DNA from: a virus
Strand: one strand, 5' to 3'
Length of the DNA: 64,000 nucleotides
Virus record (IMG/VR): IMGVR_UViG_3300028840_002073
Location: 1 to 64,000 of that record
Shown: positions 34,970 to 43,445 of the stretch, piece by piece
Layout: each line of letters starts with the position of its first letter
Numbering within the stretch: the first letter of the stretch is position 1
Program-made: the position numbers and the translations under genes
The notes under the pieces: generated by a model
Told to the model about the DNA's origin: nothing
Seen by the model: only the letters and a program-made list of their open reading frames with translations
Databases searched by the model: none

Positions 34970-35400
34970 TACTTCGGGCCCGTGATCGTCTCGCCGTCGC
35001 GCGAGGGCCCGAGGACCGTGGTGTTGGAGCTGAACTTGCCCCAGAAGGCCACCACCAGAGCGGTGAAGATCCCGCTCCACTCGTTTCCGGTCACGACCCC
35101 GTCCGCCAGGGCCAGTTGCAGCGCCGGGGCCGCGGCCCCGATCCCGTACAGCAGCGACACGACCAGCTTCTTGACCAACATGGACACCTCCAGGGGGCGC
35201 CAGGCCCCCGTCCTCTGTTTCAGCCACCAGATCACGACCCTGATGACCAGCGGCAGCCGAATCTCACCCGGCCTTCGGCCGTGTTTCCGCTCCGTGATCT
35301 TGCGAGCTCGCCTCCAGGCCTCGAGCGGCGTGAGGCCCCGCAGGTTGATGAGGTGCATCCGCCTGGCGTCGAAGTGGGCGTCCCACTCGTCCTGGGTCAT
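34969..35400 (-). CDS. holin-like protein with internal start
   Basis: This encodes 143 residues from the ATG at 35400 (ATGA overlap). The N-terminal half is a basic helix region. An internal ATG at 35181 with GGAGG five bases before it gives a 70-residue form (MLVKKLVVSLLYGIGAAAPALQLALADG, then SGIFTALVVAFWGKFSS) with two hydrophobic segments. That C-terminal form resembles small phage holin-like proteins. Two products from one gene would fit a holin/antiholin design, by inference. Confidence 0.55.
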   Translation of the reverse strand: MTQDEWDAHFDARRMHLINLRGLTPLEAWRRARKITERKHGRRPGEIRLPLVIRVVIWWLKQRTGAWRPLEVSMLVKKLVVSLLYGIGAAAPALQLALADGVVTGNEWSGIFTALVVAFWGKFSSNTTVLGPSRDGETITGPK

Positions 35401-36161
35401 GGGAGCACGCAGTCGCACGTCACCCAGAACTCCGAGTGGCAGGACCGCCGGAGATCGCCCCCGCACTCCCCGAACTCGTGCGTCTTCCAGTTCCAGGAGG
35501 CGTCCCGCCAGCCCACCGACACCTCGGTCAGATGCGTCGGCCCGAGCGAGCCGCTCTCACCGGCCCGGAGCCGGAGCTCGTACCCGTTCGAGAAGGTGTA
35601 GGTGGTCGTCTGCCCCTCCTTGTTCCGGACGTGATACCAGAAGACGTCCTCGCACGGAGGCGGCGTCGGCGTCGGCGTCGGCGTCGGCGTGGGCGTGGGT
35701 GTCGGCGTCGTGCATGGCCGGATGTCGACGGCCCCGTCCGCCAGGAGGCCCGGGATGATGCTCGACTTCGCGCACGAGGTCGCCACGTCGATCTGCACCC
35801 GGCAGTGATCCGGGTCCTTCGGCCGGATGGTCGGGAAGGGATACTGCTTCGTCTCCCCGGCCTGGACGCTCACCTCGACCGGATCGTGAGCGGGCTCCTG
35901 CTCATGCTCTCCGTACCAGAAGTAGCAGATGAGGCCGTTCCAGGGCCCGGTGACGTCCACCGCTCCGTGGGGCCAGACCTTCGCACTCGCGGTCGGAGTT
36001 TCGGTCGTGTCCGGTGGCGGCGCCGGCTGCAGCTCGTCCGGGGGCTCCGGAGCGACCGGCGGGGCCGGCGGCGGGATCGTCGGGGGCGGGACGTCGGTCC
36101 CGCAGACCACGAGGATCACTCCGACCAGGAGCACCCCCGCGAGAGTCATCAGCTTCCTCAT
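35397..36161 (-). CDS. secreted Pro-rich protein with hexanucleotide repeat
   Basis: This encodes 254 residues with GGAGG upstream. The signal peptide is MRKLMTLAGVLLVGVILVVCG; VVC is a poor lipobox. A Pro-rich linker, a beta domain with Cys, a Pro-Thr repeat (PTPTPTPTP, DNA 35661-35709) and a second beta domain ending in CDCVLP follow. It looks like a surface or fibre-linked adhesin with two domains on a stalk. It ends the run of seven exported proteins. Confidence 0.65.
   Translation of the reverse strand: MRKLMTLAGVLLVGVILVVCGTDVPPPTIPPPAPPVAPEPPDELQPAPPPDTTETPTASAKVWPHGAVDVTGPWNGLICYFWYGEHEQEPAHDPVEVSVQAGETKQYPFPTIRPKDPDHCRVQIDVATSCAKSSIIPGLLADGAVDIRPCTTPTPTPTPTPTPTPTPPPCEDVFWYHVRNKEGQTTTYTFSNGYELRLRAGESGSLGPTHLTEVSVGWRDASWNWKTHEFGECGGDLRRSCHSEFWVTCDCVLP
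35661..35709 (-). repeat. GGCGTC-type hexanucleotide tandem repeat
   Basis: Eight or so imperfect GGCGTC/GGCGTG units encode the Pro-Thr linker. Slippage would change linker length without breaking the frame. Confidence 0.7.
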
Positions 36162-36170
36162 GTCGTCCTC

Positions 36171-41202: not shown

Positions 41203-42649
41203 AGATCCTCCTGATCTCCGGCCTCTGGCTCCAAGCGAACCTCGGCCCCTCGAATATGAAGTCCCAGTACGCTGAGTAGAAGAAGCCTGCTCCAGAATTG
41301 TAGAGTTCGTCCAGCTCGGCAGTGGACAGGGCCCTTCGCCAGAGTGCGAGGTTGTCGAACTGCCCCAGCAAGGTGTTCGCAGAAGTGACCCCAAACTGAA
41401 AGCTGGGGTCCCCATCCGAGGCCCGCAGGGGATAAGTCATGACCTCGGACTCTACGGTTTCATCCGCACGGTGCCAGCAAGTATTGGTGGCGCTGTCGTA
41501 TCCACCAGCGACGAAGTGCCAGCGACCCTCGAACGCACCTATGGCCTGGTTGTAGGTATTCGCTTCAGTGTCGTAGCAGCGGGTCACGTTGTTGTAGTTC
41601 AGAATCGACAGCCCGCTGCTGACACCGACAGTCACCTGATACGAGGTGATCTCAGCCACCTCTCGGAACATCCAGTAGGAGTAGGAGAACGACTCGTCCT
41701 CCGCGAGATCGAAGACTGCATCTCCGAGAGTCATCGTCTCGTTGGTGCCTGAGTACCTGACCGCCATCCCCGAGTCGCTCTGCTCCACCAGCGCAGCAGC
41801 CCGTGTGGGGGTGTTCACCGCCGTCAGGTCGTTCGACCCAACAACGTCCTCGTAGGGCCCTCCATTCTCGGACAGGGGCCAGCAGGACTCCAGATTGGAG
41901 GTAGGTGCATCATCACACAGCAGCCCCTTCCCGCTGTTCCACAGGGTAGCCCTCGGGGGGATTCCACCCTTGTAGTAGAAGGTTCTGCCCTGCACGCCGT
42001 CCCAGTCCCCGCCAGGAGCCGCTGGAATCTCCAGATCGTTTGCGGTGTCGGCTGGGTAGTTGGTCAGGGCTGCGCCTGCCGTCGCCGTCTCGTTGTCTAT
42101 GGAGATGTATGCCTTCTTGTCCGAGGAGTCGTACCAGAAGCAGGCGAAGTGCCGCTTCCCAACCGTCAAGTTGGTGGACGACGTAGCCACACTCGTTCCC
42201 GACACAGAGTCGTAGATGATGGTCTGCGAGAGTGCAGTCTTGAACTGGATCAGGTACTCGTCCTGCTTGTAGACTGGCCGTCTACTTGTGGCATCGAGAG
42301 ATTCGGGCCTCACCCAGGTGCAGAAGCCGAAGCTGGTGTTTGACCCCTGCGACACAGAAGCGTTGTCGGTGACGCTGGCGTACTGATCGGAGTCGATCTC
42401 GAAGTCCGACGCATACCCGAGTCCTCCACCCGTCGCGGTCGGGGTGTTCACCTCGGTCAGGTCGTAGGTGCCGTCGCCGTTGTCCGCGCCCAGGTCGTCG
42501 GGATCGTTGAAGGTCCAGACCACTTCGGCGTCGTCGTAGACACCAGTCCCCCCAGCCTCGACCGGGTAGTAGATCGGCCCTTCACCGGGGTAGTCCTGAG
42601 CGACGAACGCACTGAGCGCGATCGCAAGGAGAAAGATCGCCGTTCTCAT
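41189..42649 (-). CDS. secreted protein with two LamG-like domains
   Basis: This encodes 486 residues. The ATG at 42649 follows GGGAGG inside a 13-codon minicistron. The signal is MRTAIFLLAIALSAFVAQ. Two LamG domains (about 60-245 and 280-470) share GYASDFEIDSDQYASV and CWPLSENGGPYEDVVGSNDL with the 36171 gene. Probable sugar-binding modules. The paralogy points to duplication within the phage. Confidence 0.75.
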   Translation of the reverse strand: MRTAIFLLAIALSAFVAQDYPGEGPIYYPVEAGGTGVYDDAEVVWTFNDPDDLGADNGDGTYDLTEVNTPTATGGGLGYASDFEIDSDQYASVTDNASVSQGSNTSFGFCTWVRPESLDATSRRPVYKQDEYLIQFKTALSQTIIYDSVSGTSVATSSTNLTVGKRHFACFWYDSSDKKAYISIDNETATAGAALTNYPADTANDLEIPAAPGGDWDGVQGRTFYYKGGIPPRATLWNSGKGLLCDDAPTSNLESCWPLSENGGPYEDVVGSNDLTAVNTPTRAAALVEQSDSGMAVRYSGTNETMTLGDAVFDLAEDESFSYSYWMFREVAEITSYQVTVGVSSGLSILNYNNVTRCYDTEANTYNQAIGAFEGRWHFVAGGYDSATNTCWHRADETVESEVMTYPLRASDGDPSFQFGVTSANTLLGQFDNLALWRRALSTAELDELYNSGAGFFYSAYWDFIFEGPRFAWSQRPEIRRIYAVH

Positions 42650-42687
42650 CGGAGCCTCCCCTCGCCCAGGAGGAGAAATCGCTTCAT
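42646..42687 (-). CDS. 13-codon coupling minicistron
   Basis: MKRFLLLGEGRLR: the ATG at 42687 overlaps the previous TGA as ATGA, and its own TGA overlaps the next ATG as ATGA. Codons for GEGRL contain GAGGGGAGG, the ribosome site of the next gene. It could be a worn-down signal peptide or a pure coupling device. Confidence 0.5.
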   Translation of the reverse strand: MKRFLLLGEGRLR

Positions 42688-43445
42688 GGCGTGACCGCGA
42701 GGGTTGCCGTAACGCTCTCACGGGTGCCCCCGTCGCTGGTGCTGTAGGCGAGCGAGATCCGGCACTCGGAGAAGGCATTGTGAGGGATCTTGTACGAGAG
42801 CCCCTGGCCGGTCGTGCTGAACTGGCAGACCGTTCCGCTCAGGGTGCCATCGCCGCAGTCGGAGCTCGGGCCCGGATAGACCCGAACGTCAGACGCACCC
42901 AGGGCCCCCTCCTTGCAGAAGTAGGCGACGTCCAGGCTGCCGAGGTCCCCGGCGTCGTACTGGACCGTCATCTGGACCGTCCTGTAGCCCGAGACGCGGA
43001 TCCACCCGTCGTCACCACCAGTCCCGCAGTTCAGGGTCTTGTAGTAGTAGGCGTTGTAGTCGGCGTCGTCGGTGGTGTTGGCGACGGTGATGTTGTTGTT
43101 GTTGGTCTTCACCGTGACGTAGGTTTCGACGTCCGGCACCACGGGGTCGGCGCTGGTGTCGCCGTCGCTGGACCGCAAGATGATGGCGTCGCCAACCGAC
43201 ACGTCGGCGAAGGCATCGTTCGTTCCGTTGTCGATGATCGTCCCGGCGGTCTTCTGGATGTCGTAGTCGGGTGCGATGACCTTGAAGCCGGTCGTGTCGA
43301 ACGGATCACCGTTCCTGCCGGTCACGGTGCAGTAGGTGGCGGTGGTCGAGGCGACGTCGTATCCGAAGGCGAAGTTCGCCTCCTGGGCCGTTGCTGGAAT
43401 GGCCAGGGCCAGTACGAGGGCCGCCAGCACGAGAATCCTTCTCAT
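42684..43445 (-). CDS. secreted beta-rich protein
   Basis: This encodes 253 residues with AAAGGAG upstream. The signal MRRILVLAALVLALAIPATAQ leaves Gln. The mature part has Asn/Asp/Thr-rich beta strands (DPVVPDVETYVTVKTNNNNITVANTTDD) and pairs of Cys in DCGDGTLSGTVC. It is the first gene of the exported block, following the lysis pair with an ATGA overlap. Confidence 0.65.
   Translation of the reverse strand: MRRILVLAALVLALAIPATAQEANFAFGYDVASTTATYCTVTGRNGDPFDTTGFKVIAPDYDIQKTAGTIIDNGTNDAFADVSVGDAIILRSSDGDTSADPVVPDVETYVTVKTNNNNITVANTTDDADYNAYYYKTLNCGTGGDDGWIRVSGYRTVQMTVQYDAGDLGSLDVAYFCKEGALGASDVRVYPGPSSDCGDGTLSGTVCQFSTTGQGLSYKIPHNAFSECRISLAYSTSDGGTRESVTATLAVTP

Follow-up and report, generated by a model that had tools for sequence, protein, structure and literature searches.

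In Bacteroidetes, most substrates of signal peptidase I expose a glutamine residue upon cleavage, which is later cyclised to pyroglutamate (PMC5837995, PMC10653852). This Q-rule has been described as exclusive to the Bacteroidetes (PMC10653852), and isolated high values for glutamine at position +1 have been noted in other groups (PMC5837995). Phages of Porphyromonas gingivalis from the proposed family Nixviridae carry five Q-rule genes, the function of which is not known (PMC10367356). Apart from these phages, which are the closest precedent for the locus described here, the literature on exported phage lectins or decoys contained nothing close. Both they and the phage analyzed here encode several proteins with Sec leaders and predicted cleavage exposing Gln. 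However, the hosts of the Porphyromonas phages are Bacteroidetes, a group with an established Q-rule, whereas our phage has a GC content of 67% and contains a contiguous cassette of LamG- and fibre-type proteins together with putative lipoproteins, the gene sets being compared by description.

Two further classes of phage genes invite comparison. Tail fibres and tailspikes resemble the cassette proteins with regard to SO2946-like_C and LamG domains, fibre repeats and, weakly, a fold in one of them similar to that of T4 gp9 and tailspikes, but the known ones have no signal peptides, their synthesis and assembly both taking place in the cytoplasm, while the cassette proteins bear leaders. Morons are likewise accessory genes that sit at varying places in structural blocks, are horizontally exchanged and often act on the host envelope; here, in contrast, as many as seven genes are linked in one large block, in phages without detected integration genes.

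The window, i.e., the whole stretch of DNA that was analyzed, covers 64,000 bases of an uncultured virus, the record of which is 66,782 bases long, and matches for terminase, portal/connector and major head protein mark it as a tailed phage. The cassette consists of seven consecutive minus-strand open reading frames, g7 to g1 (35397-43445), all of which start with ATG and are closely spaced, several with short start/stop overlaps. It directly follows, and is co-directional with, genes for a Peptidase_M15_4 endolysin (43708..44187, minus strand) and a small protein with an N-terminal hydrophobic segment (43442..43708, minus strand) that is holin-like by position and sequence, is without a family match and shares four bases of its gene with the start of g7. 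Judged only from its position, next to these two genes and amid structural ones, the cassette is probably expressed late.

The gene closest to the lysis genes, g7 (42684..43445, 253 aa), encodes a cysteine-rich beta protein with a highly conserved C-terminal half and a leader ending in ATA-QEANFA (the hyphen marks the predicted junction). Relatives with leader and Gln junction occur in L002, L003, L021 and, distantly, in G005; an AlphaFold model of g7 reached a mean pLDDT of only 52 and was set aside. The next protein, g6 (41189..42649, 486 aa, FVA-QDYPGE), contains two LamG (Laminin_G_3) stretches and is a paralogue of g2 (36171..38240, 689 aa, VCG-QVYESQ), which also has two such stretches and for which homologues with the Gln junction are present in L002 and L003. 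Between them lie g5 (40705..41202, 165 aa, ASA-QITLVQ), which is 79% identical to its L003 homologue, g4 (38724..40697, 657 aa, VFA-QVVYPP) with an SO2946-like_C domain, tail-fibre-type repeats and a C-terminal tip, and g3 (38237..38716, 159 aa, LLG-QTFPPP) with four conserved cysteines. The fibre features of g4 are common to L003 and to L069, a phage whose portal does not match that of the group. The last gene, g1 (35397..36161, 254 aa), specifies a lipoprotein-like leader, LVVC-GTD, followed by a Pro/Thr-rich stretch. Although the V at position -1 is unusual, the g1 product is probably a lipoprotein because the homologue in L002 exhibits a clean VGAC lipobox.

A preliminary description of this DNA had proposed seven adjacent minus-strand genes with Sec leaders, six of them with Gln after the likely cleavage site. 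The interval given there was right, and both counts held. With a single home-made heuristic, the calls of which are backed by the conservation and cysteine evidence given below, applied to all window genes of at least 80 aa, leaders were called for all seven genes of the cluster versus one of 50 outside it (Fisher p = 3e-8). The sole outside case, on the minus strand at 17973..19259 and absent from the preliminary description, encodes a second phage lipoprotein (428 aa, IVSC-GGN) that is extremely rich in cysteine and conserved in other phages too. Its lipobox, with Cys at +1, recurs as LTAC in L002 and LAGC in L011. All six non-lipoprotein leaders, g2 to g7, have their predicted signal peptidase I junction at Gln. 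The basic n-region, hydrophobic core and small residues at -1 and -3 expected of signal peptides fit for g2, g4, g5 and g7, while g3 (L at -3) and g6 (F at -3) are marginal, and for g5, g6 and g7 a site picker neutral with respect to Gln chose a different cut. In all six, however, the first polar residue past the hydrophobic core is Gln, directly after A or G. As Gln makes up 11.7% of the polar residues in these phages, six out of six would arise by chance with a probability of about 3e-6.

Related phages provided an opportunity to examine this pattern more broadly. Among IMG/VR records, orthologues are carried by L002 (g7, a g4-like gene, g3, g2, g1 and the second lipoprotein) and L003 (g7, a g4-like gene, g3, g2 and g5), both of which keep the core order g7-g4-g3-g2, and a portal-profile search retrieved 19 loci, of which several contain further genes with leaders. 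No homologues were found among cultured phages for g2, g3, g4 and g7 or on plasmids for g2. In a site-neutral test that asks which polar residue comes first after the hydrophobic core and from which lipoprotein leaders were excluded, 21 of the 21 group leaders that passed the filter had Gln first, preceded by A, G or S (background 11.7%, p = 3e-20; orthologues in this set are not independent, and about eleven families contribute). L069 adds three neighbouring leader genes with the junctions AGG-Q, AWA-Q and AWA-Q, which lie between portal-like and scaffold-like genes and one of which carries the g4 fibre tip. Exceptions to the Gln junction are confined to two small genes, both weak gene calls, in L003 (13131-13463, A-D) and G005 (49402-49725, A-G). 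By eye, these two share a G..ADL.(S/T)T.Y motif. A chance origin of the leader and Gln pattern is ruled out by the contrast of seven of seven to one of 50 together with the 21 of 21 count.

Sequence conservation begins at the predicted junction. Between the window phage and L003, the mature parts of g3 and g5 are each 84% identical, whereas their leaders share just 35% and 32%, respectively, and identity breaks off at the Gln or immediately ahead of it. The stretch that directly follows Gln in g7 and g2 differs in length between phages, but the Gln itself is constant. The mature parts of g3 and g5 are under purifying selection in the same comparison (dN/dS 0.13-0.14). Synonymous variation at the Gln codon was uninformative as a selection test, as all these codons are CAG (676 CAG versus 50 CAA in the genome).

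Cysteine content points in the same direction. All 19 leader-bearing proteins with at least two cysteines have an even number of them, compared with 69 of 113 leaderless proteins of the same phages (p = 3e-4, orthologues not being independent), and the median cysteine density is 1.5 versus 0.7 per 100 aa (p = 5e-4). Even counts and high density would be expected if the proteins form disulfides outside the cytoplasm. Export, as inferred in the preliminary description, is well supported by the leader signature, the conservation from Gln onward and the even cysteine counts. The poor -3 residues in g3 and g6 could indicate that the hydrophobic N-termini are uncleaved anchors or that the proteins stay in the cytoplasm, but the uniform Gln junction (21/21) and the even cysteine counts (19/19) render this highly improbable.

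Why Gln is conserved is best explained, on present sequence data, by adaptation to the host, i.e., to a Q-rule-like context of its signal peptidase. Running the same script as for the phages on small plasmid samples from few species, we found Gln-first leaders in 17 of 26 Acidobacteriota proteins (17 of 20 when A, G or S precedes; plasmids L044, L047-L049, L054-L057), in 10 of 28 from Gemmatimonadota (L045, L050-L053, L063) and in 4 of 24 from Betaproteobacteria. Host adaptation appears the simplest reading because the Gln bias is shared by the Acidobacteriota plasmid proteins and not by those of Betaproteobacteria, and within the limits of these small samples, hosts outside the Bacteroidetes with a +1 Gln bias exist. 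The likeness to the Bacteroidetes Q-rule lies in the position of Gln directly after the signal peptidase I site; the difference is that we are dealing with phages of a high-GC host and with a bias that is strong in Acidobacteriota and weaker in Gemmatimonadota plasmids. The GC content of 67% and the SD-like start sites speak against a typical Bacteroidetes host. The Gln junction suggests that the Q-rule reaches other phyla, e.g., Acidobacteriota, despite its description as exclusive to Bacteroidetes (PMC10653852), and could help to indicate the hosts of uncultured phages. The mature N-termini may carry pyroglutamate; a match to Glu_cyclase_2 (PF05096) was absent from the phage.

With regard to domains, the claim that several of the proteins have LamG or tail-fibre repeats was borne out: g2 and g6 both match LamG (PF13385) in Pfam, and g4, which also has the fibre-type repeats, matches an SO2946-like domain (PF22237). 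A PHROGs search gave zero matches for all seven cassette proteins, and a sequence search of solved structures with g2, g3, g4 and g5 gave none either. The g3 model (mean pLDDT 73, core about 80) was compared with the PDB, and the six top matches were phage fibre, tailspike and baseplate proteins and T4 gp9, followed by a sharp drop in probability. As E-values of 3e-3 to 8e-3 and TM scores of 0.30-0.39 are weak, the resemblance of the modelled g3 core to these domains is suggestive only.

Tailed phages are assembled in the cytoplasm, and the preliminary description correctly stated that a signal peptide is not normally part of a tail-fibre protein. The window phage itself offers an internal contrast to the cassette, as neither its two large fibre-like genes (45538-50106) nor the adjoining gene for a LamG protein (50106..51479, minus strand) encodes a signal peptide. 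The main rival reading, to which the g4 repeats and tip and the fibre-like fold of g3 lend support, makes the exported proteins components of the virion: as fibres or head decorations, they would fold and be disulfide-bonded in the periplasm and join the virions only at lysis. Compatible with this, leader genes directly follow the major capsid protein gene in G004 and G005, and L002, G005 and L069 have them between portal and scaffold/major capsid protein genes; a place inside the structural block, as seen in several phages, would suit virion proteins too. However, the genome has leaderless fibre-like genes of its own (45538-51479), the position of the cassette is not fixed and we know of no precedent for exported virion parts in tailed phages, so that we regard a virion role as rather unlikely. 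It is similarly doubtful that, in a non-Bacteroidetes host with a Q-rule-like preference, tailed-phage fibres would pass through Sec, undergo oxidation in the periplasm and be added to virions on lysis.

The cassette is, as its sequence identities indicate, exchanged horizontally, because g3 and g5 are 78-79% identical to their counterparts in G001 (the L003 record) while major capsid and portal proteins of the same two phages share about 30% (29-30%). The terminases are 44% identical and the matching part of g4 68%. With G007 (the L002 record) the relation is reversed, the head protein being 71% and g3 only 49% identical. Leader genes are found near lysis genes in the window and in L003 and away from recognized lysis genes in L069, G004 and G005. 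Moron-like traits, namely an accessory nature, horizontal exchange and variable position, are present. Swapping between distant phages, varying insertion points and a lower GC3 of g2, g4 and g6 (0.75-0.78 versus about 0.9 elsewhere) could therefore signify host-fitness or conversion genes for secreted adhesins that alter the host surface or biofilm, chiefly in a carrier or lysogenic state. We consider this improbable, given that no integrase was recognized among the window genes searched and no lysogeny or integration genes were detected, that searches of GTDB genomes with g7 and portal profiles returned no related prophage and that the cassette is packed co-directionally with lysis genes.

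The neighbourhood of the holin-like and M15 endolysin genes in the window and in L003, together with the Pro-rich putative lipoprotein g1, could also suggest accessory lysis proteins, i.e., periplasmic or outer-membrane factors that aid in breaking up the envelope, with the lipoproteins as outer-membrane spanin-like partners. This is very unlikely: spanin families yielded no match in Pfam or PHROGs, the leader genes of L069, G004 and G005 are apart from recognized lysis genes, and lysis cassettes are, to our knowledge, composed of smaller and fewer proteins than g1 to g7.

Our preferred interpretation, which we hold with modest confidence, is an exchanged accessory cassette of Sec-exported fibre- or lectin-like proteins that act in the envelope or at the cell surface. 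Its supported parts, the leaders, the Gln junction, the even cysteines and the transfer of the cassette, are all read from sequence. Signal peptidase I would cut the leaders immediately before Gln because, as we propose, they match a host in which +1 Gln is the rule for most exported proteins. Once mature and disulfide-bonded, the beta proteins would reside in the periplasm or at the surface of the cell, and one or two lipoproteins would be anchored in the envelope. Binding of envelope or surface glycans appears the most likely function, and possible effects include covering of receptors, a change of the infected-cell surface or keeping progeny from re-adsorbing to debris. The idea of a surface role is guessed from the kind of fold; the domains are in keeping with an adhesin or decoy layer, and we favour periplasmic or surface adhesins or receptor blockers. 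Taken together, the data suggest that the host envelope may receive tail-fibre-type proteins from these phages. Distant uncultured phages have in common a linked and exchangeable set of fibre-like proteins that appear to be exported, although proteins of this type are normally cytoplasmic, and this raises the question of whether such proteins are put on infected cells or whether virions are finished outside the cytoplasm.

Three other reading frames of the record deserve mention. A 60-aa frame with a hydrophobic N-terminus (33697-33879) shows, over 25 residues, about 50% identity to the group's major head proteins, which could be due to chance. Next to it lies a gene for a trypsin-like/Nal1_C-like protein (33876-34859) with homologues on plasmids of scattered taxa, and the gene was dropped as a host clue for that reason. 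A giant protein of 4,552 aa with helicase/Strawberry-notch-type matches is encoded at 51479-63991 (to 65137 in the full record) and contains zero cysteines, as does its relative of 2,403 aa in G005.
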